This document shows, one piece after another, positions 124-43,150 of a stretch of DNA of 50,247 nucleotides. The stretch lies in the IMG/VR virus record IMGVR_UViG_3300032213_001756, positions 1 through 50,247 of that record. One strand, written 5' to 3'. The notes under the pieces were generated by a model. That model saw nothing but the letters and a program-made list of their open reading frames with translations, ran no database searches and was not told the DNA's origin. Position numbers and translations under genes: made by a program. Origin of the DNA: a virus. The stretch's first letter is position 1. Every line of letters begins with the position of its first letter.

Positions 124-3100
124 TTAGGAACTAAAACTAGCACCTGTTGGTAGAATGTTGAAATCGAGGATAATGAATTCAGCAGTTCTAGTTGGTTGGA
201 TGAAGATTTGTCCGTAAAGAACATTACGATCAATCAAGTCAGGAGTATTGTTTTCATCATCCATTTTGACTTGGAATGCGTAGATACCGTTACGTTGTTG
301 TACTGATTCCAAGTATGGATTTACAATACTCAAGAAACGATTTCTTGTAGAAGAAACGTTTTGTTCGAATACCAAGTAGTTGCTTGAACTTGCGATAAAC
401 TTCTTCAAGTTGATCAACAAACGACGTACATTGATACGATCCAAAGCGCTTGGGGCGATTTGTAGAGTCTTTTGACCCCATACACAAATACCTTGGCCAG
501 GGAATGCTGCGATTGGATTTACACGGCCTTCGTACAAGGTATCACGTTCACTGTGAGTTACACGATCAAGTACTTGTACTGCGGTTGGAATACCACCACG
601 GTTTAGACCGGCAGGAGCGTACCATTCAGCAGCGGAGTTATCGTTAGCAGCGTAAACTGCTGGCAATACTACTGAAGGAGGAACACTAATAATCTTGTTG
701 GTATTAGTATCTAGAATCTTAACCCAAGGATAATAAGTACCTACATAGTTACTGTCAATGTCTGCGACACTGTTGATAGCAGCATCGATCAATCCTACAG
801 TTTGATTACTTGCTGGGAATACTACGTTATCCATGATGTAGAAACAATCTTGACGAGTTCCACACATATCAATTACCAATTCGGTAACATAACTGTGTAG
901 AGAACGGAAGATACCAGGCAACACGATCAAATTAATATCAAATTCATCTGCGTTACCTAGAGCAGCAATACATTGTTTGTAAGCAATACTACCTGGACTA
1001 TTAATGTTTGTACAATCTAGACCTTGAGTGTTGCCTGGAGTAATGTTACTACCAACATTGATTGGAATTGCTGGCCATTGACCTTCAAATCCACCTTGGA
1101 ATCCAAGTACGAACTTACGTAGTTTTACATATGTAGATTCATTCACAGCGTCATAAACACTTGGAATACTACCGCTCAAGCTTGGGTTTAGTAATGAACC
1201 AGTACTTGCTGATGTACCTTGAGCATAATATTTAGCGGTAGATGTACCGTAAACTTTATCTTCAAGATCGAAGTCGATATTCAAACCATTACTATCGGTG
1301 CTACCATAGTATGGCAATGGATTGAAATATTGTTTAGTGTTGTTATCTACACCAACTCCAAAAGAAGAAGTTGGATATAGAGATTGAATTTCGGAATCAG
1401 TTCCTGGAACTGCACCGAATACAGTGCCAGATGGATACTTACCAGGAGCTAGACCGTAAATACTTGCTTTACTATATTGTACGTATGGCACATAGATGTT
1501 TGCAGTACTATTGATCGGAGTACTATAAGATTCAAATCCATATGGTATACAAACAACTGGATATGCTACATCAGACATTTCGATTCTGATATATCTACTC
1601 AAGTTAGCATAAGTACCATATTGAATGATCTTACCAGCATAAGTAATATAAGCATATCTATCACCAATTCTACGTGCAATAAAGTTTGCACTGTCTGGAT
1701 CTAGATTCAAGTTTTGGAAGATTTCCAAATACTTAGGTTTCTTATCAGTATCACTATAAGCACGAACACCTAGAGTAAATGAACCCCAATCGCTTCCTGG
1801 AACTGTACCAGCCAACTTAACGTTGCTAATTTCAATCTTGTATTTCTTGTTACTCAATGTACCATCACTCAAAGTGTGAGCTTTAAACAATTGGAACTTA
1901 GTTGGAACAGCAGCTTCGTTTGCACTACCTTTGAATGGAGCAATCTTTTGTGAATATACCCATGGAGTATAAGCGTTTGTGATACCAAATTGACTATCTC
2001 CAGCATTTAAATTGGTACTATATTGATCAACAAACTTTAGAGGTTCGCCTACGATTGTACTTCCAGATAGACTATTAGTACCAACTTGCAATCTCCAACC
2101 CAAAGTACTGGTCTTTTCAGCTACGAACTTCTTGATACTGTCTTCAAATAGAACATAGTTGTAAGCAGCTTCAACTTTTTGACCGGCAATTTGTTTGTCT
2201 GGATTTCCAACAGTTGGATCGATTCCGAATACATCTTTAATATAGTTATTATCATTTTCATTTAGACTGAAATCATAATATCCATATGTACCGGAAGAAA
2301 CACTGCCATTTGGATTTGAGAAACTATATCTCAAAGCCAAGTTATAAACGTTTTCGTTTGGATTAATCAAGTTCTTATATGGGAATACGCTACTTGTTAA
2401 TTGACTTAATGTTGTACCATTAAATCCATACACTTCATAGTCGTTACTAAATTGTGTAGAAGCATTTTGGGTATTTGCTAACACTGCCAATATCATTTTT
2501 TGACGACCGTCGATGACAGGATTACATGGATCTATACCTTGGTTACTATCATTTACGGTAAAGTTTCCATTATATTTAGCAAAATTACCACTGATTACAC
2601 CTTTAAGTTGTAGACCAGCAACACATGTTCCTGAACCACGTAAAGACTCAACGCTACCACTTATGAGTCTCACAGTGTTACTGGAAACATTCAATACATC
2701 TGGGTCATAATCAACTATTACATTTCCAGCTGTATTTCCGAAGTAAGAACTAGAAAATAGAGCTACTGTAGTTGTGCTTTCAGCGAATGCTGTAGAAATT
2801 GCAGTTTCGGCACTTACATCTTGTGCTTGTACACTAGAACTTAGATAGTAATATGGATAACTTGAATTACCTGGTGCGCCTTTCTTAGTGAATAAAATAG
2901 GACCAATACTACCCAAATTGAGTTGTTGACCGGCGTATAATACGCTACCACTTAGTGTTCCTGTGCCATCTGTTGATGCCGCGTTTACTAAACTTGTAGC
3001 AGCTACAGATCCGAATTTTACATTAATTGCACCGCTCAATGACAATCTCGAATTGTCTACACGGAACTCATAACTTCCTGTAGATTTAGCTAAATTGTAA

Positions 3101-4080
3101 GTAGCCGAAGAGAAATTAGTTGTTTGATTACTTGGCAGTTTAGCAAATACTAATCCGTATGTAATAACATTTCCGCTTAATGTATATGAAGCGGTCAAAT
3201 AACTATAATACGGATAGGTTGTAGAATATGGAGCGTTATTTTGAGTACCAGCAACATTTCCAAATGTATTTGTATCAAATACCAATGAATCTGTAGTTGC
3301 ACTCTGAGATAAAGATCCTGAAAAACGTGATTTTTGGAAATCAAAATTTGCCAAACTATAGTTAGTTGTTTTGCCTACTGTAAAATTACGTCTTTGTACA
3401 GATGCGGTAAATTGATTGTAATAATCGGTAGTGGTTATTTTTAATACTTTACCTTTACTTCCAGAAGAAGCCAATGAACTTGATAGTGATAAATAATATG
3501 GCAAACTACTAATATTATTCAATAAAAACGATGAAATTTCACTGGTAGATGCTTTGGTTACTGTAATTTTACCATTTAATCCAATAAAATTATTTTTTCC
3601 AACAGCTGTGTTATTACTACCAGATGAATACAACACAGAACTACTTTGTTGATAATTAATATTGGTAGTATAACTAGTATCATCCAAATACATGAATGAT
3701 GATGTTGTAATAGCACCTGCGTCTGATCCACGGTCCCATCGGCCTGGTTGAGCATAAACAATCAATGGACTCTTTTGCCAATAACCGGTTAGACCACCTA
3801 CACGAACAACTGTAACGATACCTTGTTGTTGTAGATATTCTTTAGCGGTATATGGACCGTAATATACTCCGTCAGCTAAACCGAAAGTACTTTCTAAAGT
3901 AGCTACTTCGGAAATTGTTGCTGGGAAGAATGCTGGTCCGTCAGCAAATGGAGCTACTATAGCTCCACCTATATTTGCGACACCTTGTGCTAGTGCCGAA
4001 AGATCGTTTTCACGGGTAAAAACCCCTGGACTTACTATATTTTGTGTTGGTGCGAATGTTCCACCTTCTTGTATTGGCAT
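124..4080 (-). CDS. 18: Contractile tail sheath protein (T4 gp18-like), strongly enlarged
   Basis: This is the sheath subunit that stacks around the tail tube and contracts during infection. The first ~110 residues (NIVSPGVFTREND near the N-terminus, then AKEYLQQQGIVTVVRVGG) and the last ~300 residues (DRINVRRLLINLKKFI, NRFLSIVNPYLESVQ, GQIFIQPTRTAEFIILDF) match the conserved core of T4-type sheaths. At 1318 residues it is about twice the T4 length of ~659. The excess lies in a Ser/Gly/Tyr-rich middle part (~residues 110-900) in which a PYY-containing segment recurs about three times, suggesting repeated beta-rich inserted domains facing outward. GAAAGGA 11 bases before the ATG is a good ribosome site. 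It is the last gene before a terminator, and the upstream neighbour is the glycan gene module. Identity is firm; the role of the insertion is unknown. Confidence 0.93.
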   Translation of the reverse strand: MPIQEGGTFAPTQNIVSPGVFTRENDLSALAQGVANIGGAIVAPFADGPAFFPATISEVATLESTFGLADGVYYGPYTAKEYLQQQGIVTVVRVGGLTGYWQKSPLIVYAQPGRWDRGSDAGAITTSSFMYLDDTSYTTNINYQQSSSVLYSSGSNNTAVGKNNFIGLNGKITVTKASTSEISSFLLNNISSLPYYLSLSSSLASSGSKGKVLKITTTDYYNQFTASVQRRNFTVGKTTNYSLANFDFQKSRFSGSLSQSATTDSLVFDTNTFGNVAGTQNNAPYSTTYPYYSYLTASYTLSGNVITYGLVFAKLPSNQTTNFSSATYNLAKSTGSYEFRVDNSRLSLSGAINVKFGSVAATSLVNAASTDGTGTLSGSVLYAGQQLNLGSIGPILFTKKGAPGNSSYPYYYLSSSVQAQDVSAETAISTAFAESTTTVALFSSSYFGNTAGNVIVDYDPDVLNVSSNTVRLISGSVESLRGSGTCVAGLQLKGVISGNFAKYNGNFTVNDSNQGIDPCNPVIDGRQKMILAVLANTQNASTQFSNDYEVYGFNGTTLSQLTSSVFPYKNLINPNENVYNLALRYSFSNPNGSVSSGTYGYYDFSLNENDNNYIKDVFGIDPTVGNPDKQIAGQKVEAAYNYVLFEDSIKKFVAEKTSTLGWRLQVGTNSLSGSTIVGEPLKFVDQYSTNLNAGDSQFGITNAYTPWVYSQKIAPFKGSANEAAVPTKFQLFKAHTLSDGTLSNKKYKIEISNVKLAGTVPGSDWGSFTLGVRAYSDTDKKPKYLEIFQNLNLDPDSANFIARRIGDRYAYITYAGKIIQYGTYANLSRYIRIEMSDVAYPVVCIPYGFESYSTPINSTANIYVPYVQYSKASIYGLAPGKYPSGTVFGAVPGTDSEIQSLYPTSSFGVGVDNNTKQYFNPLPYYGSTDSNGLNIDFDLEDKVYGTSTAKYYAQGTSASTGSLLNPSLSGSIPSVYDAVNESTYVKLRKFVLGFQGGFEGQWPAIPINVGSNITPGNTQGLDCTNINSPGSIAYKQCIAALGNADEFDINLIVLPGIFRSLHSYVTELVIDMCGTRQDCFYIMDNVVFPASNQTVGLIDAAINSVADIDSNYVGTYYPWVKILDTNTNKIISVPPSVVLPAVYAANDNSAAEWYAPAGLNRGGIPTAVQVLDRVTHSERDTLYEGRVNPIAAFPGQGICVWGQKTLQIAPSALDRINVRRLLINLKKFIASSSNYLVFEQNVSSTRNRFLSIVNPYLESVQQRNGIYAFQVKMDDENNTPDLIDRNVLYGQIFIQPTRTAEFIILDFNILPTGASFSS

Positions 4081-4172: not shown

Positions 4173-6275
4173 TTATAATTCTTGTATAACTCGGTCAATT
4201 TGTTCTTTTACCATATCAAATGATATCTTTTTACTACATTCAAACTGTCTAATTGTATTTTTGTGTTCCGGACACCAATTCCAATCGCCTGGGTTAAATT
4301 TATGATTCTGGTTATTCCAACATCCGTTACACACAGATTCATTAATAATCCGATATGGAGTTTCAAATTCAGCAAATTTTTTAGAAAACCCACTTATTAA
4401 TACCACTTTTTTATTTAGCGACCATGTTAACCAACTAATTCCCGATCCCAATCCTATAAAAAATTCACAATTGAAAAGCCAATTAATTGCTTCATCTAGT
4501 GTATTGGTTTTTGGATGTAAAACATTATTTAACTGTTTTAAATCCATATAATTGAGTGGTTCTTTTTGTATAACAACTACCTTATATCCCAAAGAATTTA
4601 AATAATCTACAGTTTTTTGCCATCCTCCATCATTTTGCCAATGTTTAGCGCCAGCTGTTGACGCGGTTGATATACAGACATATTTTTCATTTAATGGACG
4701 TATATTATTTTTTATGACAGCTTTTGCTCTAATATCAACGTACTCTAATCCTAATATATCTGATGCAGTTTTTTGTAAATTAATAGTTCGATTATCGTTA
4801 GGCGTTAAATTTCTATCATTCGGATCGAAATATCCTAATTTGTATGTAGCTAAATAATCAATATTATTGATTTCGCCATAATTAAAGAAATTTAAATTTT
4901 TATAATTTTCTTGAAATAAGTCTTTGTTTGGCGTATAAAAATCTACAATACAATTATTTTTTTTCTGAAATAAATCAACAATTGGTGTCCATGCAATATA
5001 ATCTCCTAATGACGGCGATTCGTTAATAATTTTTACACGTTGGTTATTTAAATCTAATTTGTTAAGAAATGTGATATTACTTTCTAAGTCGGTAATGTTA
5101 ATGGTATAATCAATAAAATATTTTAACGATGTACTTGCCCACATATTATTGGACAATTCTGTTTCATATATACAATTATTTGTTTTATTATCGATAAACT
5201 TTACGTGATATTGTTTAGAAACATTTCCTAAAATTTCAACTTTACAACCATTGTTATAGTCTATATTGAATTGATTCGACGATTCTAAAGACGGTTTATG
5301 ACTTATTTCAGTAATTCGGTATATATAATTTAAAACTTCATCCATATATGGTGTGTAATTTTTTACAATATCATTTATTATGAAATCCCAATTTTTTTCT
5401 TTCACGGTTTGTATCGAATCTATTTTATATTTTTCATAGTTAAGTATAACTTCTTTTAAATCTTCAACTACTCTATTTACATTTCTCGACGACTTTTTTA
5501 AACCTAACAATTCATTATTATCTTCCAGTGTCGCAATTACAGGCATTCCACAACTCATAGCCTCTAACAATGTAAGATTTGGATGTCCCGCTTCTAAATC
5601 TGATAAATGTAAAAATATAGTATGACTTTGATATAGATCTAACAAATCTTTTTCGTTTAAATCAAACAAACACGTAAGCTTATCATATTTAAAATCAAAC
5701 GAATCAAAGAAGTTTTTATTATTCGATGGACCTGCAACCGTGATTGGTAATCCAAGTTGTGCAGCTGCTTTTATAGCAAACCCGAATCCTTTTCTATCAT
5801 GTGTATTATCATGTCCAATTCCGTTATTTGCAACACATAGTAACTTGTGTCCTGTAAAAGGTTTATCTACATATTGAAAATACTGATTGTTAACACCGTG
5901 ACTTTGATAAACCACATTCGGTAAGTCAAAATATTCTATTAAATATTTAGCTGGTACGAACGATTTAACCGAATATTTCATAGCGTCTCTATTTTGTTTA
6001 TAGATCCAACTATCTTTACCATAAATGTAGGTATGATGATCGTGACAAGTAAAATAATACTTCATTCCACGTTGATGTGCTTCTAAAGCTAGATTTGCCA
6101 TGTGTATGTGAATCACATCATATTTTGAAGGATCTATATCATTTAGATACAATATATCACATGTATGCCCTTGTTTTTCGAGTGAAAGTTTATATTCCCA
6201 AATAATTTTTTCTACTGCTCCCCAACCGTTGGGTGGAATTGGTAAAATGCCAGGATGTACTTGTACTATTTTCAT
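4173..6275 (-). CDS. Two-domain glycosyltransferase: GT4 fused to autotransporter-type O-heptosyltransferase (Aah/TibC-like)
   Basis: Residues ~1-320 are a GT-B family 4 glycosyltransferase: NGWGAVEKII near the N-terminus, an HDHHTY segment, and DLEAGHPNLTLLEAMSCGMPV (227-246) in the nucleotide-sugar binding region. Residues ~340-700 resemble GT9-like heptosyltransferases of the autotransporter strand-loop-strand O-heptosyltransferase family: ESPSLGDYIAW at ~419-429, a FIGLGSGISWLTW segment at ~606-618, and a terminal four-cysteine cluster (C649, C652, C668, C680). The cluster includes CNGCWN and GDWNWCPEHK, which resembles the iron site of TibC. Family members transfer heptose from ADP-heptose to serines of adhesins. 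All four cysteines are present, so the domain looks intact. The gene ends the glycan module, 5 bases after the preceding stop. The acceptor is unknown; fibre proteins or host surface are both possible. The fold assignment is strong, the donor sugar is inferred. Confidence 0.8.
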   Translation of the reverse strand: MKIVQVHPGILPIPPNGWGAVEKIIWEYKLSLEKQGHTCDILYLNDIDPSKYDVIHIHMANLALEAHQRGMKYYFTCHDHHTYIYGKDSWIYKQNRDAMKYSVKSFVPAKYLIEYFDLPNVVYQSHGVNNQYFQYVDKPFTGHKLLCVANNGIGHDNTHDRKGFGFAIKAAAQLGLPITVAGPSNNKNFFDSFDFKYDKLTCLFDLNEKDLLDLYQSHTIFLHLSDLEAGHPNLTLLEAMSCGMPVIATLEDNNELLGLKKSSRNVNRVVEDLKEVILNYEKYKIDSIQTVKEKNWDFIINDIVKNYTPYMDEVLNYIYRITEISHKPSLESSNQFNIDYNNGCKVEILGNVSKQYHVKFIDNKTNNCIYETELSNNMWASTSLKYFIDYTINITDLESNITFLNKLDLNNQRVKIINESPSLGDYIAWTPIVDLFQKKNNCIVDFYTPNKDLFQENYKNLNFFNYGEINNIDYLATYKLGYFDPNDRNLTPNDNRTINLQKTASDILGLEYVDIRAKAVIKNNIRPLNEKYVCISTASTAGAKHWQNDGGWQKTVDYLNSLGYKVVVIQKEPLNYMDLKQLNNVLHPKTNTLDEAINWLFNCEFFIGLGSGISWLTWSLNKKVVLISGFSKKFAEFETPYRIINESVCNGCWNNQNHKFNPGDWNWCPEHKNTIRQFECSKKISFDMVKEQIDRVIQEL

Positions 6276-6280
6276 AAAAT

Positions 6281-7045
6281 TTATCTAGAAGAAACATTTA
6301 AATCGTATGCACTTATGTCTCCTATATGTTTACATATTTCATTAACGTGACAAAAACTTTTATATAATTTGGCAAATCTAACCGCAAATTCAAGTTCAAA
6401 AGAACCATCAACCTCGTCAAACTGTTCTAATTTTTCTAATTTTTTGACATCGTGTAATCCTGGTCTGAATCCAAAGTATGGCCAATTGATATATTTACAC
6501 CAATAAGAAGGATCTGGATTTTTTCTCATAATAACCTCGTCAAAAAATAATCCGTCACATAATGGTCTATCTTTTAAGTAAAACCATTCCCAAAAATTTC
6601 CTTGAATATTAATTTCACCTACTTCTTTTGGAATTTCTCTTTTTTCTTGTGAAAAACCAACTAAGGCTACATCTTCTTTATCATTCAGTAGTTGTATAGC
6701 TTCGCCGATAAAAAACTCAGACACATATTCAAAATCGTCTTCTGTGTGAAAAACATAATCTATAGATAGATTTGAAATGTCTTTTTTCCACAAATTCATA
6801 ATTTCCTTGTGTCTTTTTTTCGTATTAAAAGTATTTTCCGAGAAAAAGTTTGTAATAATTTTTTTATTGCCAAAAATCTCCAGTAGTGTTTTTAACATTT
6901 CGATACGATCTTCCGATTTAGAATTATCGTCATACCAAATTATTAAATCGATTATATCTTTATCCTTGCAATATTTGTGAAAAGATGTTAATGTTTTTTT
7001 AAAATGTTCGGGTCTTTTGCAAGATGTTATAGTTAAAGCTTTCAT
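6281..7045 (-). CDS. GT-A type glycosyltransferase (family 2-like)
   Basis: This 254-residue protein has the layout of a nucleotide-sugar transferase with the GT-A fold. It opens with a short strand and the TSCKRPEHFKKTLTSF segment, has WYDDNSKSED at ~37-46, and an acidic HTEDDFEYV motif (E102, D103, D104) in the place of the metal-binding DxD. The second half (FWEWFYLKDRPLCDGLFF, PYFGFRPGLHD) should form the acceptor side. Its ATG overlaps the stop of the upstream glycosyltransferase by one base (TGATG), so translation is probably coupled. It belongs to the six-gene glycan module. No signal peptide or membrane helix is visible, so a cytoplasmic enzyme is expected. Donor and acceptor cannot be read from the sequence. 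Confidence 0.75.
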   Translation of the reverse strand: MKALTITSCKRPEHFKKTLTSFHKYCKDKDIIDLIIWYDDNSKSEDRIEMLKTLLEIFGNKKIITNFFSENTFNTKKRHKEIMNLWKKDISNLSIDYVFHTEDDFEYVSEFFIGEAIQLLNDKEDVALVGFSQEKREIPKEVGEINIQGNFWEWFYLKDRPLCDGLFFDEVIMRKNPDPSYWCKYINWPYFGFRPGLHDVKKLEKLEQFDEVDGSFELEFAVRFAKLYKSFCHVNEICKHIGDISAYDLNVSSR

Positions 7046-8781
7046 CAGTTAAAATAAATTATTGATTTTGGTTTTGTAATTTCTTCTGTAAAAATTAACT
7101 TTTCATTTTCGAAAACCCCAATAGATTTTATATTTTTTGGAATATATTCAAATGTCCAACTATCTCTACCACCTAAACTTTGATAAACAGTGTATTCTGT
7201 ATTGTCGTCTAATTTTATTACTACATTTCTTGATCGTATATAATCAGAGTAATTATAAGATAACAATACATAATTATTTTGTTCAATAAAATTGCCATTT
7301 TCATCTTTTTTACAATTTGTATAAACTTTAGTTGAACAAAAATTATATTTCTTTTCCAAATTACATGTTGATACCTCGGTATTCCATATAGTATCCGAAA
7401 AATCTTGAAACATCAAATGTCCATCACGTAATATTACGTCTTCTGAATCGTGAAAGTTTAAATACATGAATTCTTCTGCCATAATAAAAGTATTATTATT
7501 GTTATATTTTTTAATGAATTCATCATAATCACGTTCTCTGAAAATATTATGACATTTGTTCAAAAAGTATTCTATATCACAGTAGTAATAATGAAATGAA
7601 AAATCGGGCGGAGCATTATTTCTATTTATATAAAATAACCCTCTCTTATTTTCATTAAAACACATTACATCCACCTGTTTTATCCAGTCCAAAGATTTTT
7701 CTCCAAACAAATCATCTACTTCAAATCTTTGAAAATGAGTATAACCAAGTGTTTTAACAATCGTGAGTGATCTAAATATATTTATTAATACAGAAAGACC
7801 GTGCCTTTGTAAATGTGGCACTACTTCATTGATAGAAAACCACCCCATAGATTTATAAAACACAATATCACTGTGTACGTATTTATCATTTGTAAATAAT
7901 CTATTATTAGAATCATAAAAAATATAATCTACTAAACAACTAATATCTTTATCTACAGTAGTATTTGTAATTAAAAATATATCTTTCCCCAATTTTCTTA
8001 AACGTTCAATTGCTAAAATTAATTTTTCTTTTATTTCATTCTTATAAACAAAACAATCTATGATTGATATTGTTCGATTTGTATATCGTTTTTTAATCTC
8101 ATTTAATGTTTCATCGTGTTTTTTTCTTTTGGTATCTTCATCAAAAGCTGTAATCATTCCTGTATTAGTAATTCTATAAACTCCAACACAATGATTCAAA
8201 TCACATTTTGCTGGTCCGTGTACCAGTATTTCACAATTTATTGCCCAATCTGGATACGGTAATTCTTCCATCCAGTTTTTTATTATGTTTTTATAGTTTC
8301 TAAATACTCTACCAAAACTAACATAATTTGTATAAAACATGTCTTGCAAATGAATTTCTGTTTTTAAACCTGTAAGAAATCCATGTTCTGGATTAAATTT
8401 ATTATTTTCAAAATATCTATACCCAGAACAATATAATGAATATGTTTTATTTAAATCTAAAAAGTCTACTGCTCTTTGATAATAATTCGTATCTGATAAA
8501 TAATCGTCGCCGTCCAAAACAGCAACATATTCTCCTGTTGCAGTTTCTAATAGAATATTTAAATTATTAACGGCTCCTATATTAACATCAGGAAGTAATA
8601 TTTTAACCTTGGAATGATTCGAATATTTTTTTATCAAAAGTTCTTGAGTTCCATCATTTGAAAAATCGTCTCTAACAATAATTTCGAAATCAAAATTAAC
8701 ATTTTGATTTAATATTGAATCTATACATTCTTCTATATAGTTTTTAAAATTAAAACACGGAATTATAACACTCAGTTTCAT
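7045..8781 (-). CDS. Family 2 glycosyltransferase with a large C-terminal domain
   Basis: Residues ~1-235 are a classical GT2 domain: KLSVIIPCFN at the start, EIIVRDDFSNDGT at ~33-45 for nucleotide binding, TGEYVAVLDGDDYLSD with the DxD at D90/D92, and a PDWAINCEILVHG acceptor-side segment. Residues ~236-578 form a second domain that I cannot assign. It contains VDYIFYDSNNRLF, LGYTHFQRFEVDDLFG and a beta-rich end. The length is well above the ~300 residues of a simple GT2. The start codon overlaps the upstream acetyltransferase stop by four bases (ATGA), and the stop overlaps the next start by one. It probably extends a glycan or transfers sugar to a protein in the cytoplasm. Substrates are unknown. 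Confidence 0.82.
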   Translation of the reverse strand: MKLSVIIPCFNFKNYIEECIDSILNQNVNFDFEIIVRDDFSNDGTQELLIKKYSNHSKVKILLPDVNIGAVNNLNILLETATGEYVAVLDGDDYLSDTNYYQRAVDFLDLNKTYSLYCSGYRYFENNKFNPEHGFLTGLKTEIHLQDMFYTNYVSFGRVFRNYKNIIKNWMEELPYPDWAINCEILVHGPAKCDLNHCVGVYRITNTGMITAFDEDTKRKKHDETLNEIKKRYTNRTISIIDCFVYKNEIKEKLILAIERLRKLGKDIFLITNTTVDKDISCLVDYIFYDSNNRLFTNDKYVHSDIVFYKSMGWFSINEVVPHLQRHGLSVLINIFRSLTIVKTLGYTHFQRFEVDDLFGEKSLDWIKQVDVMCFNENKRGLFYINRNNAPPDFSFHYYYCDIEYFLNKCHNIFRERDYDEFIKKYNNNNTFIMAEEFMYLNFHDSEDVILRDGHLMFQDFSDTIWNTEVSTCNLEKKYNFCSTKVYTNCKKDENGNFIEQNNYVLLSYNYSDYIRSRNVVIKLDDNTEYTVYQSLGGRDSWTFEYIPKNIKSIGVFENEKLIFTEEITKPKSIIYFN

Positions 8782-9329
8782 GACAAATATATATTCTTTC
8801 TTTTTTTAATAAATTTAGCAGGTGTGCCAGCGATAACATCAAATGGTTCTGTGTTTCTTTTTATCAACGAATGTGCCCCAACTGATGTTGCGTATTCTAA
8901 CACTACATTAGGCAATATAACACTATTACATCCAACAACACAATGTTTTTTTAGATAAATATTACCACATGTTACATTTTTGATAGAATCGTCCACAACT
9001 GAATTAGTAGCATATCCCTCGGTATAATCGTCATTAGACGTATATAATATGCATCTTGCAGAAGTACATGTAAAATCTTCTAAAGTTATATTACCTGAAT
9101 TGCCATAAAAATAACAACCAGCTGAAATGTGAACGTTATTTCCTATAGTTATTTTTGTATCTTTTCCCGCAATTAAAATACACTGTGCGTCTATTCTAAC
9201 GTTATTTCCTATAATAATATTACGTGAGTTGTGTAATATAACGTCATCAGATATTGACACATTTTCTCCAAATTGGATACCTGAATTTATGAGTTCTCTG
9301 GACAAATAATTTTTAAACTGTCTAATCAT
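8778..9329 (-). CDS. Left-handed beta-helix O-acyltransferase (hexapeptide repeat family)
   Basis: The 183-residue protein is built from hexapeptide-type repeats (ISDDVILHNSRNIIIGNNVRIDAQCILIAG, given here only as the repeat region ~26-55), continuing with KITIGNNVHISAGC and ending with the conserved loop and cap VGAHSLIKRNTEPFDVIAGTPAKFIKKR. This is the pattern of the WbbJ/LacA/CysE-like sugar O-acetyltransferases, which act as trimers and use acetyl-CoA. The start overlaps the aminotransferase-like gene by four bases (ATGA) and the stop overlaps the GT2 gene in the same way. In this context it most likely acylates a sugar of the glycan built by neighbouring enzymes. The acyl group and the sugar are inferred, not seen. 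Confidence 0.85.
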   Translation of the reverse strand: MIRQFKNYLSRELINSGIQFGENVSISDDVILHNSRNIIIGNNVRIDAQCILIAGKDTKITIGNNVHISAGCYFYGNSGNITLEDFTCTSARCILYTSNDDYTEGYATNSVVDDSIKNVTCGNIYLKKHCVVGCNSVILPNVVLEYATSVGAHSLIKRNTEPFDVIAGTPAKFIKKRKNIYLS

Positions 9330-9955
9330 TGTTTATAAATTTCAAATTTTGACAAATCTGGATATGGGAGTTCTAAATCCTCATTATGTTTAGGCGTTCC
9401 ATCCGTATTATAAAATTGATTCATCATAAGTAATCCACGAGCTGCCAATTCAGGCATCATATAAAAATTCCAACCCAACATATCAAAGTTGTCAGTATGA
9501 TACGAACATTCTCTGCGACCACTATAACGAGCTCGTTTAAACCACAAATGTGCATCATAATTATCTGTTAAAATCGCGCCGCCTTTAGATAACTTGAAAT
9601 GTTTGTATGGACCTGTAAAAGATATACACATATGAGTATTTTTAATATACATGTTGTGTGTAAATCTTAATGCGGCATCCCATACTTTTGTAGGTGCAAG
9701 TTGATACGCTCCTTTAATAGTTTTTCCTTCTACCGGAGTAAATTTAACCTTCGCACCCGCATGAATTATTTCACATGGAACCGATGGATAGGTTCTTGAT
9801 GGAATTGTTATAGTTTGATCTTTAACATTTTCATACATTAATGATAAAAATATAGCGTTGGATGCGTTGTCAACCGTAATTACGTATGGCGCACCTGTAT
9901 ACTTACTTAGTTGTTCTTCAAATTCCTCTGTTATTTTATATACACCCTGTGACAT
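9326..9955 (-). CDS. Short DegT/DnrJ/EryC1/StrS-type sugar aminotransferase homologue
   Basis: The sequence follows the large PLP-binding domain of sugar aminotransferases: YTGAPYVITVDNASNAIFLSL at the start (a stretch at ~19-39), TITIPSRTYPSVPCEIIHAGAKVKF, VWDAALRF with the cofactor aspartate D93, and SFTGPYKHFKLSKGGAILTDN (~112-132), where K118 is the likely Schiff-base lysine by its spacing to the GG pair. Full-length enzymes have ~370-400 residues; this one has 209 and lacks most of the C-terminal small domain. It may be a minimal active form, a partner subunit or a decayed gene. It starts one base after the preceding stop and overlaps the acyltransferase by four bases. A role in making an amino sugar for the module is plausible but uncertain. 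Confidence 0.7.
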   Translation of the reverse strand: MSQGVYKITEEFEEQLSKYTGAPYVITVDNASNAIFLSLMYENVKDQTITIPSRTYPSVPCEIIHAGAKVKFTPVEGKTIKGAYQLAPTKVWDAALRFTHNMYIKNTHMCISFTGPYKHFKLSKGGAILTDNYDAHLWFKRARYSGRRECSYHTDNFDMLGWNFYMMPELAARGLLMMNQFYNTDGTPKHNEDLELPYPDLSKFEIYKQ

Positions 9956-9956
9956 A

Positions 9957-12632
9957 TTATTTTGTAAATGTTTTATAAGTTTTATCTAAAATAGAATAAC
10001 CGTCACACTGTGTGGCAAGTCTCTCAGTTAGTATACCACGTTTTACATTTTTTTCCCAACTAAAATTGTTAAAATATATGTCGGCGGCGTCCCACTTAGC
10101 CGTTCTCAAATATTCAAATAACGTTTTACGTACTCGTTTTGAAAACATAATACATTGTAAACCTATAATTCTATCAGTTACATAACATATATCTTGATTT
10201 TCAGGTTTATATACTATGTTAGATTGTAAAATTCCAGTATCAAGTGTCTTTGTATCCCCAAACGAAAAATAATCGATGTTTTCTTTTCTTAGTATTTCAT
10301 CAACAGATTTTATAGTTTTAATAAAATCCGTTAAATCCACTTCCAATAAACAATCTCCTTCACATAAAATTATGTAATCCAAATCGTCATCAAATTCACT
10401 TAAAATTCCCAACTTGAACGATTCAAAACACCCATAATGAGCTGCTGTCAGAGAATCATTATGTTGTTTTGTTAATGATACATCATGTGGTCTTCTACAA
10501 TTGTGTGACGGTGGTAAGCTTGAATATAATTCATTTGTATGTAATACGTAATTTACACCATATTGTTTTAAAGACTCCAACGACTTTCTTGAAGCAACTT
10601 CCCTGTCATCATTTAGAGTTGTTTGTAAATGTACTAATTTAATTTTAAGAGGATCGACTGTCTTGGTAAAGAAAATTGTACCATTGTGAAAATCTACATA
10701 ATTGTCTTTAAAGTCTTCCTTTATAAGAGAAGCTTGATTTTGTACAACTGATATATTATATCCAAACTTTTCTAAATGTTTAACCAAAGAAATCACCCTT
10801 TTATCAAAATTATCATGGTATTCGACTAATATTGAGTCTATCTTTTTAAAAGTTGATTCTCCAAGCGAGTGCAAAATTTCATATTCCGCTGCCTCGACAT
10901 CCAATTTCAACATTGTTATTTTTGGCAAATTATAATCATTAATTACATCGTCCACAGTAATACAATCAACTTCTATTTCACGAATAGAATGTGTTTCATT
11001 TTTCAAATGATCTGCGAATATGGAACCAATTGTAGAATTATCGTCTGTTATGTAAAACTTTATTTTTTTACGTTCACCTGCTATAGCTTTATCTATTACA
11101 GTTACATTACTATCATTTCGAGTAAGATGTCTTAAATTTTGTAAACATTTATTATTTGGTTCAATAGAAAATACTCGTTTTGCTCCTTTTTGCAAACACA
11201 ATTTTGTAAATAACCCGGAATTGGCTCCTACGTCTAAAACTATATCCAAATACTTTTCAAATTGAAAACAATCGTATCTATTGTGTACAAACATTTCATT
11301 GTAATTATTAAACAAACAATCAAATGGATCTATAGTATCTAAAACAACTGTTCTTGTCTTCGGAACATCTTTTATAAATAGGTCTTTATAAGATACCAAT
11401 TTTTTATCTTTATCATAAACTTCTATTTTCACACCTCTCATCGATGGTTGATCGATAAATGAATATGCGTGTATTGGAATTGGTATAGACCACATCCAAT
11501 TATTATTTGCAAAGTTGGCGCTATAATAATACATTGATGCGTTAGAATCAATGTCTTTGAAAACCACATAATAAAAAGCACTGTCAGATTTTTTATAATT
11601 AAAATTGAACTTGTTCAGTTGTGGTTCAAAGTTAACATCGAATATGTCATCAAAATTTATTAAAGTTGAAACGTTTGAGCTTATTACTTTTGATTTAATC
11701 AAATTAAGGTTGTCATTAGTATCTTCATTTAACCAGGAAATATTTTTATATTTATCGTACATACCACAATAAACTGGCAAATTATACATCAATATTGGCA
11801 TTTCCCACCCTATAGCTTCACGTAATACAAGTGGACTTGTTTCTTTATCATGATTGTTGCCTTTTGAAGTAAACAGAAATACATCCATTGCATTGTAAAA
11901 AGTATCAACGTCTTTGCGTTCACCCCACCATTTACAATTAGCCGGAAATTCTTTCATTAAAGGTTCCCAATACCACTTAAAATTGTCTGCTTGATTACCG
12001 ACGAAGTGAAACTGAACATTTTCGTGTAAAAGAGATTTAGCATAATTAATAATTTCATCTTGATTTTTACGAGCTGTAAATAATCCTACATTTAAAAAGT
12101 GTGTTTTGTTTGGATCCAATCCTAAATTTATTAAAGACTGGGTTCTATCATTTTTTTTCTTGTACTCAATTGGGTATTCAACTATTGTAATAGGAACGTT
12201 TAAACAAGATAATGTTTTTCTTTGATGTTCACTAATAAAAGCAAATCTATCAGGAAAAAATAATTTATTTTTAGCTTCAAAACTACTATCGTGAGAAGTT
12301 TCAATTATTTTATAAGTTCTATTTTTATTATAAATTTGTTTTGCCAAATTAATGTCACAAAAAAATTCTGGCATTTCTTCGAAATGGATTATATCTGGAT
12401 TAATTTTTTGAATTAGATCTAGTAAATCGAATTTATTAACACCTAGTGTAATTAATTTCTCTTTCAACAATTCTACTAGTTGATTTCTTTGAACTACTAA
12501 TTTACCACCTGTAATGTCACTATATTCTACACAATATATTTCATGTTGATTGTTCAACAACTGAATTTTTTTAAGTAGATATTGTGGAGCGCCGCCTGTA
12601 GATAAATGTGGAGCTATAAATAGTATTTTCAT
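9957..12632 (-). CDS. Three-domain protein: GT4 glycosyltransferase, FkbM methyltransferase, GT-A-like domain
   Basis: Residues ~1-315 are a GT4 transferase (LFIAPHLSTGGAPQYLLKK at the start, NVGLFTARKNQDEI ~181-194, KETSPLVLREAIGWEMPIL ~263-281). A beta-rich linker covers ~320-430. Residues ~440-660 are an FkbM-type SAM-dependent methyltransferase: FEKYLDIVLDVGANSGLFTK with DVGANSG at 467-473, SIEPN at 489-493, LKLDVEAAEYEIL at ~575-587. Residues ~665-891 look like a GT-A transferase: HYGCFESFKLGIL, then DYIILCEGDCLLEVD with an acidic EGD motif (758-760), and DRIIGLQCIMFSKRV. It is the first gene of the glycan module, 8 bases after the Mre11-Rad50 stop, with an AAGAGA ribosome site. The fusion suggests sugar addition followed by O-methylation and a further sugar. 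The reading frame is uninterrupted. Substrates are not visible. Confidence 0.8.
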   Translation of the reverse strand: MKILFIAPHLSTGGAPQYLLKKIQLLNNQHEIYCVEYSDITGGKLVVQRNQLVELLKEKLITLGVNKFDLLDLIQKINPDIIHFEEMPEFFCDINLAKQIYNKNRTYKIIETSHDSSFEAKNKLFFPDRFAFISEHQRKTLSCLNVPITIVEYPIEYKKKNDRTQSLINLGLDPNKTHFLNVGLFTARKNQDEIINYAKSLLHENVQFHFVGNQADNFKWYWEPLMKEFPANCKWWGERKDVDTFYNAMDVFLFTSKGNNHDKETSPLVLREAIGWEMPILMYNLPVYCGMYDKYKNISWLNEDTNDNLNLIKSKVISSNVSTLINFDDIFDVNFEPQLNKFNFNYKKSDSAFYYVVFKDIDSNASMYYYSANFANNNWMWSIPIPIHAYSFIDQPSMRGVKIEVYDKDKKLVSYKDLFIKDVPKTRTVVLDTIDPFDCLFNNYNEMFVHNRYDCFQFEKYLDIVLDVGANSGLFTKLCLQKGAKRVFSIEPNNKCLQNLRHLTRNDSNVTVIDKAIAGERKKIKFYITDDNSTIGSIFADHLKNETHSIREIEVDCITVDDVINDYNLPKITMLKLDVEAAEYEILHSLGESTFKKIDSILVEYHDNFDKRVISLVKHLEKFGYNISVVQNQASLIKEDFKDNYVDFHNGTIFFTKTVDPLKIKLVHLQTTLNDDREVASRKSLESLKQYGVNYVLHTNELYSSLPPSHNCRRPHDVSLTKQHNDSLTAAHYGCFESFKLGILSEFDDDLDYIILCEGDCLLEVDLTDFIKTIKSVDEILRKENIDYFSFGDTKTLDTGILQSNIVYKPENQDICYVTDRIIGLQCIMFSKRVRKTLFEYLRTAKWDAADIYFNNFSWEKNVKRGILTERLATQCDGYSILDKTYKTFTK

Positions 12633-38884: not shown

Positions 38885-39367
38885 TTAATCAATCTTTACT
38901 TTCTTACTTGTCGGTACAGTTGGTTTCAACTTATTAAGAGTGACTGTCAACAAACCATTTTCAAATTTAGCCAATGGTTCGTCTTTATCAATGATATCGC
39001 CTAATGTAAAACTACGTTTGAAACTACTATGTTTTAATTCTCTACGAATGTATCTGCGATCTTGTAGATCTGTATCTTCAAGTTTTCGAATCTTTTGACC
39101 GCTAATAGTAAGTACATTTTCTTGTACATCAACTGATACTTCTTCTTTAGACAGACCTGGAATTTCTGCTAAAATTTCTACACGATCATTGTAATCAATC
39201 ACATCTACACGGGGATAACTTTGTTTTTCAAAGAATCCTATACCTAGTTCTTTTGTGATTTCTGGGAATTGTGAAGTGAATACTTCATCAAACAACTTAT
39301 CGAATGGAGTTAAAAACTCATCGCGATTTAAATGGCGAAACGCCGGATTGTATCTAATTACTGACAT
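38885..39367 (-). CDS. hsp20: Small heat shock protein (Hsp20/alpha-crystallin family)
   Basis: This is an ATP-independent chaperone that keeps unfolding proteins soluble. The alpha-crystallin domain spans ~50-150: PRVDVIDYNDRVEILAEIPG, LSKEEVSVDVQENVLTISG, RELKHSSFKRSFTLGD, and AKFENGLLTVTLNK with the conserved GLL. The N-terminus (RHLNRDEFLTPFDKLFDEVF) and a basic end complete a typical 160-residue protein. The ribosome site AGAAAGGAAAAT precedes the ATG. A consensus sigma70-type promoter and a terminator make it a single-gene unit, probably transcribed by the host polymerase independently of late genes. Hsp20 genes recur in T4-like phages of marine bacteria, where they probably assist virion protein folding. 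Confidence 0.95.
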   Translation of the reverse strand: MSVIRYNPAFRHLNRDEFLTPFDKLFDEVFTSQFPEITKELGIGFFEKQSYPRVDVIDYNDRVEILAEIPGLSKEEVSVDVQENVLTISGQKIRKLEDTDLQDRRYIRRELKHSSFKRSFTLGDIIDKDEPLAKFENGLLTVTLNKLKPTVPTSKKVKID

Positions 39368-39502: not shown

Positions 39503-41065
39503 TTAATAATACCCAACTGCATATCCCTGACATGAATATGTTCCAGCGGCATATACACTTAGTGTAGCTGTACCTGAAGTGTATCCGGCGGGTGGCGCTC
39601 CTTCGATTGTAAAATGAGTTCTTATATCTCCACCGTCCGGATCATATGAATATCCCGTTCGCCATCCCCAACTTGAATATACGTTTGTGCTAACTAAAGT
39701 TCCGTTAAAAGTTACACCATTTAGTATCACGCCGTCATTTTCACCTACATTAAAACTACCTTCTATTTTAAACCATTTTATTTTTTTGCCAACAGCACCT
39801 ATAGTTCCAAAACTGTTTGCTGTGCCTGACTGAATAGGTGTTAGAGATCCAATTTTTTGATTATAAGATGCGTTTGCAAAGCCAGTATCGCCTCCAGCTA
39901 AGTAACTAGCTGTTTGCGCATAACTGCTGCTAACTGCATATACAGAGTATACGGAGTAACTAGATGTAGCATTTACGCTTACACTTTTTCCAGTTCCTCT
40001 AAAATTAGTAATATTGTTGATTCCTCTAAAAGATCCGGTAACTCCTCTGTTTACATTTAATTTTCCGTGAATATAGGTATTACCACTTCCGGATACAAAG
40101 AATGTTTTTGTAAATCCAGTATTAGCACTGCCTGATCCATAATTAACTAATATTGCGGTAGATCTATTTTCCACAGTTGCTTGGGGACTCCATGGCCCTT
40201 CACCACTACCACTAAACATGTTTATTTGTAGTTTAGCTCTTAAATATTTATCGAATGATCCGGTTGGTTCATTTGGCGGTTGTACACCTATACCAATAGC
40301 ACCATCTCTAGCTGGCGTATTATTAGCCATATATGGCCAAAAATAGAAACCATTTCTTCGCTGTACCATACCGTAAATAATAGTCTCAGTGGAAGGAGCA
40401 GCTTTAGATACAACATTGGAACTAGAAATTTCGTATGATCCAATTGGCGTTGTAAATGTTAAACTACCACTTCTATTAGAGTAAATAATCCATCCGTCAC
40501 GATTTGGAAAAGCTTCAGAACTATTTAAATTAAATAGACTAATTCCGGCCTGATTAAAACTATTAAAACCACGACTTGCGATGTTTAAATAATTAAATGA
40601 TAAAGATGAAGAAATACTTAGTGATTTAGCCCCACCTATGTTATTATTAAATATTAAGCCAGGAGCACTTGTTAATCTGGTACCATCATAATATCCAACG
40701 CCATTTGTAGTATTTTGATTAGTTTGACGTAGATATGATGATGTTTTGCTAAAGTTTGATATACCGTAAAAACTTCCACTGAAACTTCCACTCGCACTTG
40801 CGTTTTTACTTATAATTTTTCCCCAATAACTGCCACTAAAACTGCCGCTTGATTTTCCCTTAAAACTTCCAGTAAAACTGCCTGAATATGATCCTGTAAG
40901 TTTTCCCATGGAAACTTTTAAATCATTAACTGTACTACGTCTCGACCAAAGTAAAGAACCTGATTCTATCGTCAACAATATATCGCCACCGTCTAAATTT
41001 GAATATCTAACTAGTTGACTTACTTTAATTGGAGTTACACGGACATTATTACATGGTAAAGGCAT
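39503..41065 (-). CDS. Tail-fibre-like protein rich in SGSF repeats
   Basis: The N-terminal ~55 residues (VTPIKVSQLVRYSNLDGGDIL, then SGSLLWSRRSTVNDL) form an attachment-like domain that also occurs in the proteins at 41078 and 41786. Residues ~55-105 consist of tight SGSF/SGSY repeats (TGSYSGSFTGSFKGKSSGSF), which suggest short beta strands in a triple helix. The middle region has Gly/Asn/Ser-rich strands, and ~350-390 again has SVNATSSYSVYSVYAVSSSY. The last ~110 residues (KKIKWFKIEGSFNVGENDG ... GTYSCQGYAVGYY) look like a globular tip. It is the last gene of the fibre cluster. Host binding is the likely role; no chaperone gene follows. Confidence 0.78.
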   Translation of the reverse strand: MPLPCNNVRVTPIKVSQLVRYSNLDGGDILLTIESGSLLWSRRSTVNDLKVSMGKLTGSYSGSFTGSFKGKSSGSFSGSYWGKIISKNASASGSFSGSFYGISNFSKTSSYLRQTNQNTTNGVGYYDGTRLTSAPGLIFNNNIGGAKSLSISSSLSFNYLNIASRGFNSFNQAGISLFNLNSSEAFPNRDGWIIYSNRSGSLTFTTPIGSYEISSSNVVSKAAPSTETIIYGMVQRRNGFYFWPYMANNTPARDGAIGIGVQPPNEPTGSFDKYLRAKLQINMFSGSGEGPWSPQATVENRSTAILVNYGSGSANTGFTKTFFVSGSGNTYIHGKLNVNRGVTGSFRGINNITNFRGTGKSVSVNATSSYSVYSVYAVSSSYAQTASYLAGGDTGFANASYNQKIGSLTPIQSGTANSFGTIGAVGKKIKWFKIEGSFNVGENDGVILNGVTFNGTLVSTNVYSSWGWRTGYSYDPDGGDIRTHFTIEGAPPAGYTSGTATLSVYAAGTYSCQGYAVGYY

Positions 41066-41077
41066 ATTTAATAAATA

Positions 41078-41422
41078 TTAAACGTTTGGATACAAAGGAA
41101 TTTTGTAAGGATTTCCATTCAAAAATATTTGTAGAAAATTATCATTCAAAAATGTACCGGCACTAGTATCAATATTTACATTAGATCCTGTAAGACCAGA
41201 AGTTATATCTAAACTTCCTGTAAATGATCCTTTATATGAAGCGTTTATTGAGCCAAAATATGTTATTAAGTTTCCAAATGTAGATTTCTTGGAATAATAT
41301 ACATTATTAATACTATCATATTGCGAAATGACCAATAGATCATTTGAACTTATAGTCGAAGAAGCCAATTGACTTATTCTCAAAGTTTTTACATTTAAAC
41401 TATTACAAGGACTTATTGCCAT
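41078..41422 (-). CDS. Short fibre-related protein (shared N-terminal domain)
   Basis: At 114 residues this protein carries the same N-terminal domain as its neighbours (LNVKTLRISQLASSTISSND, LLVISQYDSINNVYYSKKST), then YKGSFTGSLDITSGLTGS and a short end FLNGNPYKIPLYPNV. It lacks the long shaft and tip. It may be an adaptor, a short fibre or a remnant of a longer gene. No frame break is visible at its end. It is spaced 12 bases from the next fibre gene. Confidence 0.7.
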   Translation of the reverse strand: MAISPCNSLNVKTLRISQLASSTISSNDLLVISQYDSINNVYYSKKSTFGNLITYFGSINASYKGSFTGSLDITSGLTGSNVNIDTSAGTFLNDNFLQIFLNGNPYKIPLYPNV

Positions 41423-41455
41423 ATATTATAAGTATATATTTTTGAAATTTTAAAG

Positions 41456-41782
41456 TTAACAATTTACTCCGGAGTTTGTTGGAGTACCCGGACTACCACC
41501 TGGCACTCCTTCGCCTACTACAAGTGTAAAATTTGTAGCATCAAATGGCAAACACGATGTAATAAGTACGGAACTCCCCAATGGAGGTAACGAGTATCCA
41601 ACATTATTAAACTCCGCTCTGAGCGTTCCTGGACCAGAACTAGTTGATGTATAATCATAATAAGCTTCTACAGCACCATTAGCAACCACAGGTCCATTTA
41701 CAGTAGTATATGTTTGAAAAGTTTTATAAGTTACTCCTGGTATATCATCCACGTTTTTCCAAAATGAAAATGAAAAGTTCAT
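41456..41782 (-). CDS. Unidentified small protein within the fibre cluster
   Basis: The 108-residue protein begins FSFSFWKNVDDIPGVTYKTF and contains VANGAVEAYYDYTSTSSGPG and a beta-rich centre. The end is Gly/Pro/Ser-rich with a terminal Cys (VPGGSPGTPTNSGVNC). No family is recognised. It starts 3 bases after the stop of the upstream fibre gene. A fibre tip or accessory beta-sandwich is suggested by position. Confidence 0.65.
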   Translation of the reverse strand: MNFSFSFWKNVDDIPGVTYKTFQTYTTVNGPVVANGAVEAYYDYTSTSSGPGTLRAEFNNVGYSLPPLGSSVLITSCLPFDATNFTLVVGEGVPGGSPGTPTNSGVNC

Positions 41783-41785
41783 AAA

Positions 41786-43150
41786 TTATTGGAAATTATT
41801 TATTGCACTACCAAATATTTTATCGTCAATATTAACAAACGTTATAATATCTTTACTTCCTGTTGCCATAGTAATAGAAGCACTTAATCCATTTTTCCAA
41901 TAAATTTTTGTATTTGCAGTAGAACCGCCGTCCAAACTACCAGACCATTTCAAAACTTTAAATTTACCGCTATTATGTACAAATACATTAGATGTTTGTC
42001 CTTTTAACAAAGACATTGTACAATATGCACTAGCACTTAGTTTTAATTTAACAGATGAATTATCATTACCATATATAATTTTATATGGACTAGCTACTGT
42101 AACGTTTACTGTTTGTGAATTTCCAACGAAAGAACCGGTAAAACCACCGTTTGATTTTATTCCTTGATCAACTTGTAGCTGTGTTTGAATTACATACGTA
42201 TTTACACCGTCCCAATAAAAATTATTTAAATTCTTAAGAGTTCTAGCACCATCCCAGATTGTCAAATAATCGGCAATACCAACATTACTTGCAGTAATTG
42301 GATTGGTCCAACCAACATCATAACTAGTATTAGTATTTTTAGCTAAAACTTGATACTTATTTCCGAGAGCTGGTATACCATTTATTGCTGATCCACCAGC
42401 AGCTGCATAAGCCGCTGTTAGTGCTTGTGTAGCATATGAACTTGTTCCATAAAAATATGCAGATGAAACCCCACCATTTGGCGTTGTAGTAGTATTGCCA
42501 CTTTCTAATACTTTTGTTGTGGTTGAATTATAAACGTCTCCTGTTAAATTTCCGACAAATCCAGTATTTGCTGTTATCGTCGTTCCAGTAACAGCAGCTG
42601 CTGATGAAGCTCCTATTATTGTACCATCTATAGTTCCACCATTGACATCTATATTACTAAAAGTGCTTGTTCCTATAGACGTTATATTGCCTCTGAAACC
42701 TATACTAGCGCTTATTCTCGTTCCTTTTATAGTTGATTCGGATGAATTTCCTATAGACGTTCCATCTATAGCGCCTCCATTAACATCAATACTACTAAAT
42801 GTACTTGTTCCCGTAGATGTTATGTTGCCAGTTACATTTCCAGAAAAACCAGAGGTTGCAATAATAGTATTACCCGTCAGTGTATTTCTAACCGCAACTG
42901 TATAAAAATTAGACGATTTAAAATCTGGGTTGTAAAAACTACCTGTAAATTTATTATTTGTACTAGTGAAGTTTACAGTTGCGTTGAATGGATTGAAATT
43001 ATTAGAACTAAGTATTGATCCACTTAAAGATGCATAACTTATTCGTTTGGTAACTCCATTTGACTGTAAAAGTAATTCATCTTGCCCACTTACAGTCGAA
43101 GTTATAGGCAGTGACGAAATTAATCTTCCGTTATTAGATAAGACTGGCAT
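41786..43150 (-). CDS. Tail-fibre-like protein with tandem beta repeats
   Basis: The N-terminus (NNGRLISSLPITSTVSGQDE, LLLQSNGVTKRISYASLSGS) matches the attachment domain of the two other fibre-like proteins. Residues ~95-205 contain near-tandem repeats of the form TSTGTSTFSSIDVNGGAIDG-xxIG, the pattern of beta-helical shafts in many phage fibres. The C-terminal region (VTVASPYKIIYGNDNSSVKL, SAYCTMSLLKGQTSNVFVHN) looks like a compact tip. It lies just after PhoH, with an 18-base gap that holds a TATTTATA element, so a transcript may begin here. A receptor-binding or fibre shaft role is likely. Confidence 0.78.
   Translation of the reverse strand: MPVLSNNGRLISSLPITSTVSGQDELLLQSNGVTKRISYASLSGSILSSNNFNPFNATVNFTSTNNKFTGSFYNPDFKSSNFYTVAVRNTLTGNTIIATSGFSGNVTGNITSTGTSTFSSIDVNGGAIDGTSIGNSSESTIKGTRISASIGFRGNITSIGTSTFSNIDVNGGTIDGTIIGASSAAAVTGTTITANTGFVGNLTGDVYNSTTTKVLESGNTTTTPNGGVSSAYFYGTSSYATQALTAAYAAAGGSAINGIPALGNKYQVLAKNTNTSYDVGWTNPITASNVGIADYLTIWDGARTLKNLNNFYWDGVNTYVIQTQLQVDQGIKSNGGFTGSFVGNSQTVNVTVASPYKIIYGNDNSSVKLKLSASAYCTMSLLKGQTSNVFVHNSGKFKVLKWSGSLDGGSTANTKIYWKNGLSASITMATGSKDIITFVNIDDKIFGSAINNFQ
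42600..42860 (-). repeat. Imperfect tandem repeats in the fibre gene
   Basis: Two or three ~130-base units encode a TSTFSxIDVNGGxIDGTxIG stretch. On the plus strand the copies near 42615-42690 and 42745-42830 share CCATCTATAG and long matched blocks. Recombination among the units could change the shaft length. Confidence 0.7.

Follow-up and report, generated by a model that had tools for sequence, protein, structure and literature searches.

A phage-branch TibC/Aah-family protein fused to a GT4 glycosyltransferase, with a probable role in O-glycosylation of Ser-rich virion fibres

Results

A sugar gene cassette in a T4-like myophage

The DNA analysed here, referred to as the window, spans positions 1 to 50,247 of IMG/VR record IMGVR_UViG_3300032213_001756 and represents a 50-kb piece of a T4-like myophage genome. 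It encodes a tail sheath, a gp46/47 fusion, a RuvC-like resolvase, gp6- and gp25-type baseplate genes, PhoH and a tmRNA, and terminase and portal genes adjoin in a near-identical contig, L002. By baseplate and sheath, the closest cultured relatives are Mel-JY01 and the Flavobacterium phages 'immuto', a relationship that suggests a Bacteroidota host.

Six tightly packed sugar genes (4173-12632) lie between gp46/47 and the tail sheath. The last of them encodes a fusion of a GT4 enzyme to a BAHT domain, BAHT denoting the family of bacterial autotransporter heptosyltransferases TibC/Aah (NCBIfam TIGR04414; PDB 4RAP, 4RB4). In cassette order, followed by the sheath:

9957..12632, minus strand: 891-aa fusion of GT4, FkbM methyltransferase and a C-terminal region of ~230 aa (Pfam/NCBIfam matches)
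9326..9955, minus strand: short 209-aa DegT/DnrJ/EryC1-type sugar aminotransferase (Pfam, 55.7 bits)
8778..9329, minus strand: hexapeptide-repeat acyl(acetyl)transferase (Pfam match; an N-formyltransferase stands here in L002)
7045..8781, minus strand: 578-aa GT2 glycosyltransferase with C-terminal extension (Pfam Glycos_transf_2, E 4.9e-26)
6281..7045, minus strand: 254-aa GT-A-like protein with a conserved H-x-E-D-D, a cassette partner that adjoins BAHT in other phages
4173..6275, minus strand: GT4-BAHT fusion protein, 700 aa (profile and structural matches)
124..4080, minus strand: tail sheath of 1318 aa, much extended at its N-terminus (Pfam and PHROG sheath)

The sheath thus lies beside the fusion gene, as an earlier sequence-only reading of this DNA had placed it, and this order, sheath downstream of BAHT, is kept in two relatives (L378 and L386). 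Homologues of the 891-aa fusion adjoin BAHT elsewhere, including in the 735-kb phage LR756501. The 254-aa protein had no family match, and a profile search of it against the PDB gave nothing usable. The aminotransferase is far from the ~360 positions of its family model, and in other BAHT phages it has 209-214 aa at 74-79% identity; it is possibly a working short form. Sheath domains were recognized only at ~974-1317 of the 1318 residues, the extension being conserved in relatives. Elsewhere, the window carries a large FG-GAP-repeat protein in the phage structural region (17823-20486, minus strand) and a tmRNA gene (48739-49123, minus strand; Rfam, 124 bits; tag AEDNVVSYDFSYDEVVALAA) followed by tRNA-Gly and tRNA-Ala.

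Domains, fold and active site of the fusion protein

An ORF check of the window gave exact boundaries for the 700-aa frame, which runs on the minus strand from an ATG at 6275 to 4173; the plus strand across 4173-6275 is stop-rich. The following features were assigned within it:

5301..6275, minus strand: N-terminal GT4-like (GT-B) domain, residues 1-325 (Pfam Glycos_transf_1, Foldseek, motif positions)
4188..5297, minus strand: C-terminal TibC/Aah (BAHT) domain, residues 327-696 (TIGR04414, 326 bits; TibC TM-score 0.87)
4234..4331, minus strand: predicted four-Cys iron-finger site, C649, C652, C668 and C680 (alignment to TibC C339, C342, C358 and C370)

The fusion is a member of the TibC/Aah family. 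Residues 327-696 match TIGR04414 (hepto_Aah_TibC) over model positions 3-374 of 374 with 326.2 bits (E 2.4e-97; curated cut-off 200 bits), and the PDB TibC sequence matches residues 335-695 (E ~1e-58), far beyond chance. Pfam TibC_1st (PF21129, the N-terminal beta-barrel) scores 29.6 bits against a cut-off of 27, and Glyco_transf_9 exceeds its cut-off in the same half. An AlphaFold2 model built from a 28-sequence alignment contains two GT-B modules (pLDDT 88.4, pTM 0.54), with the barrel strands at residues 335-418. In Foldseek searches its C-terminal half retrieved TibC (4RAP/4RB4; E 1e-30, TM by target up to 0.87), and its N-terminal half the GT4 enzymes MshA, BshA and PimA. Profile and structure therefore bear out both the family and the GT4 fusion recognized by eye in the sequence-only reading; for the GT4 half, Glycos_transf_1 reaches 30.2 bits over residues 1 to ~300 (cut-off 26.4). 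That half has an RKGF motif at residue 161 and, at residues 228-238, EAGHPNLTLLE, a non-canonical E-x9-E rather than E-x7-E; among phage GT4-BAHT fusions the majority sequence is LEAGHPNLTLLEA.

Residues were mapped onto TibC of Yao et al. 2014 (PMC4358343). The catalytic base Asp110 corresponds to D425, within the previously noted GDYIAW motif (residues 424-429), and the donor-site residues Thr226, Lys230 and Trp305 correspond to T540, K544 and W615. The four cysteines singled out in the sequence-only reading align exactly with the iron ligands of TibC, residues 339, 342, 358 and 370 (PMC4358343). The Asp, the Trp and all four Cys are invariant in 85/85 viral BAHT domains, and the Lys is present in 83 of these.

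Other TibC features are lost. Arg286 of TibC contacts adenine N1 of ADP-heptose, and its Ala mutant is largely inactive (PMC4358343); the phage protein has Ala596 at this position, in an ungapped stretch. Arg stands here in 76/83 genome domains versus 55/85 viral domains. Pro300, the stereoselectivity residue of TibC (PMC4358343), is replaced by Gly610. The beta-hairpin thumb through which TibC dimers are joined into a dodecamer (F265/V266; PMC4358343) is locally shortened: L579/K580 align with F265/V266 but do not form the hydrophobic tip pair, and the AlphaFold2 model of the phage protein has no hairpin here, so a TibC-like dodecamer is doubtful. Because activity of TibC on TibA requires both Arg286 and the thumb (PMC4358343), the phage enzyme must handle its donor and assemble in another way, and TibC-like activity is not assured. 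Ser O-glycosylation is likely, since the catalytic Asp, the Thr/Lys/Trp set and the four Cys are retained; heptose is unproven, and the donor may be a nucleotide-heptose or another sugar.

The function 'heptosyltransferase', as earlier assigned, therefore does not carry over: judged from its residues, this should be read for the phage protein as a family name only and should not name its donor. ADP-heptose pathway genes, considered as support for heptose, were mostly absent from BAHT phages apart from a few sub-cut-off matches; among 50 BAHT records, one had a gmhA-like gene and one a strong rfaE-kinase-like gene. On contig G030, which holds loci L369 and L040, a GmhA-like protein (L369; 202 bits, just below cut-off) accompanies a BAHT fusion, and LR756501 has an rfaE-kinase-like gene (306 bits). 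These genes hint at phage-encoded heptose supply in a few phages.

Could the acceptor be something other than protein? The cassette might build or modify a polysaccharide, LPS or hypermodified DNA, with the BAHT half acting as a GT9-like transferase. The GT9 heptosyltransferases of LPS are distant fold relatives of this half, as the Glyco_transf_9 match reflects, the thumb and Arg286 are lost, and the set of GT4, GT2, aminotransferase and acyltransferase resembles O-antigen genes. However, the protein keeps the BAHT-specific barrel and the iron finger, which have been described for TibC-type enzymes only, and matches TIGR04414 over its full length; no base-hypermodification gene was recognized in the window, which is part of the genome only; and the link with arrays rich in Ser/Thr, not Pro (below), would be unexpected for a lipid or DNA acceptor. 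We consider a non-protein acceptor improbable and retain protein O-glycosylation, the general idea of the sequence-only reading, as the best-supported one.

Phage BAHT domains are widespread and form their own branch

An alignment-based scan of IMG/VR confirmed at least 586 contig stretches as BAHT-encoding, and 176 matches were confirmed in the GTDB species-representative genome set; in INPHARED, the domain occurred in only four records. A single-protein search of viral contigs had recovered L002 alone, a 91% relative, so the alignment-based search was needed. The phage location reported earlier is secured by gp46/47, baseplate and gp25-type genes, with terminase and portal in L002. Nor is it an isolated case: hundreds of viral contigs encode the domain.

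A tree of 114 BAHT domains splits with full support into two sides. One holds TibC with 52 of the 60 genome sequences; the other holds every one of the 53 viral sequences and the remaining eight genome sequences. At least one of these eight (L086) is a near-exact match to a viral contig, and four come from proteobacterial genomes or MAGs (Methylobacter, Methylomicrobium, Polaromonas and Methylococcaceae). Bacterial BAHTs are mostly stand-alone proteins of ~430 aa; the ~700-aa GT4-BAHT architecture is common to more than 20 viral contigs and homologous along its length.

Ser/Thr-rich collagen-like arrays often accompany phage BAHT genes

Near many viral BAHT genes there are genes for long Gly-X-Y arrays with Ser/Thr predominating at X and Y (GTSGSSG...). 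Once near-duplicates were removed, 27/53 BAHT loci had such an array within ±8 kb, compared with 0/80 loci centred on gp6, a baseplate gene (Fisher p=8e-14). In the reverse direction, BAHT was found in 8/120 Ser/Thr-array loci versus 0/119 loci with Pro-type (GPX) arrays (p=0.007) and in 0/80 gp6 loci; within the DNA examined, the other 112/120 Ser/Thr-array loci had no BAHT. Whole-contig counts (arrays in 31/50 BAHT contigs and 2/50 gp6 contigs) come from sets that are not length-matched (~3.8 versus 1.6 Mb), and we therefore rely on the counts within ±8 kb. A 31-bit BAHT match in control contig G061 was rejected as an unrelated 222-aa ORF, so that of the two array-bearing gp6 contigs only G052 has BAHT. 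GSFxGSF tetrapeptide repeats, tried as a general BAHT partner, showed no link (1/81 BAHT loci versus 1/80 gp6 loci).

The statistical link is to fibre genes: the array proteins bear Mtd_N, Peptidase_S74 and YadA_head, which are phage receptor-binding or fibre domains. In four loci (L007, L012, L035 and L060) the array gene lies 31-63 bp downstream of the BAHT gene on the same strand. The Y position is predominantly Ser, and TibC modifies Ser, not Thr. The original BAHT papers argued for autotransporter partners by similar genomic-partner logic. In the phage branch, the adhesin-type partner that the sequence-only reading associated with the family gives way to these collagen-like tail fibres; Pfam scans covering nearly all large ORFs of the window returned no autotransporter domain.

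This partnership bears on two further explanations. The enzyme might glycosylate host surface proteins during infection (adhesins, autotransporter-like or outer-membrane proteins), for example in receptor masking or phage exclusion, with the virion not being the target. Bacterial family members do modify surface adhesins (PMC4358343), remodelling of the host surface by phage glycosyltransferases is a known phenomenon, and a neighbouring gene has a PHROG GtrB-like match. Yet what accompanies the BAHT gene in phage genomes is tail genes and collagen-like fibres rather than adhesins, the gene sits in a structural-gene neighbourhood (sheath) whose order is kept in relatives, and no gene for an integrase or for lysogeny was noted in passing within the 50 kb. 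We regard a host-surface target as of low probability.

Alternatively, the link to arrays could be indirect, the enzyme acting on other virion components (the extension of the sheath, or capsid or decoration proteins) and the two kinds of gene being common in large aquatic myophages; long fibres and sugar cassettes may simply be two traits of one set of large aquatic phages, a confounding that the gp6 and Pro-array controls address in part. The sheath directly adjoins the BAHT gene in the window and in the related contigs G050/G052, sheath homologues occur in 35 viral BAHT loci, and the known sequence of the window's phage has no array. Direct adjacency of array and BAHT genes in several loci, a similar pairing in methanotroph chromosomes and the absence of the pairing from baseplate-anchored and Pro-array loci all speak against it, and we judge an indirect link unlikely, though it deserves some weight. 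Fibre arrays are accordingly kept as the preferred acceptors across the family.

Three of the proteobacterial genomes, mainly of methanotrophs, pair a viral-type BAHT gene with a neighbouring gene for a small GTSG-array protein that is secreted or lipoprotein-like (Methylobacter, L087 6893-9113; Methylomicrobium, L119 7848-9918; Polaromonas, L089 7998-9441). The flanks of L087 and L119 look chromosomal rather than phage-like. Each of the three could be a minimal enzyme-substrate pair.

Acceptor half and acyltransferase are exchanged between near-identical phages

Neither the 50 kb of the window nor contig L002 (62 kb) contains a Ser/Thr-rich array; either the array of this phage lies beyond the sequence known, or other Ser-rich fibres serve instead. 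Two features are relevant here:

39503..43150, minus strand: cluster of four fibre-like genes (products of 520, 114, 108 and 454 aa), Ser-rich with GSFxGSF repeats; its products are candidate acceptors (most diverged genes between window and L002)
44836..47532, plus strand: 898-aa protein with a GPQGPAG collagen-like array, Ser/Thr-poor (sequence repeats)

An Hsp20-type small heat-shock protein (38885-39367, minus strand) adjoins the fibre cluster.

Most proteins of the window and L002 are 99-100% identical. Against this background, nucleotide identity falls to 72-83% over BAHT residues ~351-525 (mostly barrel and N-lobe) but is 98-100% in the C-lobe, starting at about residue 561; residues 106-210 of the GT4 half have also diverged (76-89%). 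The acetyltransferase at 8778-9329 is replaced by a sugar N-formyltransferase at L002 6669-7340, between neighbours that are 98-99.5% identical, and the fibre genes are at 48-89%, with one missing. The N-lobe side is the acceptor side of a GT-B enzyme. Acceptor half and acyltransferase are thus exchanged between near-identical phages, and the pattern fits an exchange of acceptor recognition and terminal N-acyl group with the donor side held constant. The same divergence points to the fibre cluster at 39503-43150 as candidate acceptor; fibre genes are hypervariable for many reasons, and window and L002 constitute one correlated pair.

G052 provides a more distant comparison (sheath 74% and gp46/47 75% identical to those of the window). 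Its equivalent slot holds a different cassette, which also ends in a GT4-BAHT fusion (43% identical); a common slot with different cassettes marks an exchangeable island. The G052 protein syntenic to the 898-aa protein has GTTGTTGTSG arrays, and G052 elsewhere encodes a Ser/Thr-array protein of at least 1591 aa.

Proposed pathway and relation to known systems

We propose that this phage-branch BAHT, fused to a GT4 enzyme, probably serves protein O-glycosylation of the phage's own virion, most likely of Ser-rich fibres. With Asp425 as base, the BAHT half would transfer the first sugar onto Ser side chains of virion proteins, the most likely acceptors being Ser-rich tail fibres and, across the family, collagen-like Gly-X-Ser arrays. 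The GT4 half, followed by the 254-aa GT-A-like protein, the GT2 enzyme and the second GT4-FkbM fusion, would extend this sugar, and the aminotransferase and acyltransferase could supply an N-acylated amino sugar for the glycan tip. The enzymatic activity, the donor sugar, the acceptor used by the window's phage, the sequence of transfers and the biological role are inferred; the glycan may act as a coat or in receptor tuning.

The broader generalization is that many tailed phages have their own TibC/Aah branch, widespread and previously undescribed, which initiates Ser O-glycosylation of Gly-X-Ser fibre arrays, that fused and neighbouring enzymes build exchangeable glycans, and that near-identical phages swap the acceptor half and the terminal N-acyl group; for this statement as a whole we see the balance as even.

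Phages are rich in glycosyltransferases with unknown targets, and many environmental phages have collagen-like fibres rich in Ser/Thr, a composition for which no reason is known. The BAHT-array association offers a testable joint explanation, an enzyme and its acceptor. If true, a family so far tied to bacterial adhesins enters phage virion biology, and fibre glycans could affect adsorption, protease resistance and immune recognition. The L002 comparison suggests that glycan and acceptor half are exchanged modules, that is, a diversifying pressure.

With TibC/Aah the phage protein has in common the N-terminal barrel, the catalytic Asp, the T/K/W donor residues and the four-Cys iron finger; it differs in its fusion to GT4, its place on the viral side of the tree, Ala596, Gly610 and the lack of a thumb and of a neighbouring autotransporter. 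In mycobacteriophages (Freeman et al. 2023, via PMC12619734), glycans are likewise carried by virion proteins, as proposed here; the sites described there are the C-termini of capsid and tail-tube subunits rather than fibres.

We found no study of the function, fusion or fibre association of phage BAHTs in the open-access literature, and a phage fibre-glycosylation system with BAHT is apparently undescribed. Two relatives in named phages are not annotated as BAHT. LR756501 (uncultured huge phage, 735 kb) encodes a GT4-BAHT fusion (40% identity over 99%) near a GTSGSSG-array protein. In Microcystis phage Mel-JY01, the domain forms the C-terminus of a 1227-aa protein (WWT39291) close to a Ser/Thr-rich array protein; it differs in having other fusion partners and is annotated 'methyltransferase FkbM'. 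A database label for a phage BAHT does already exist: UniProt A0A6J5SVC1 is entered as 'Glycosyltransferase Aah/TibC [uncultured Caudovirales phage]', and its predicted structure agrees with that of the BAHT half at 36% identity and rmsd 1.9.
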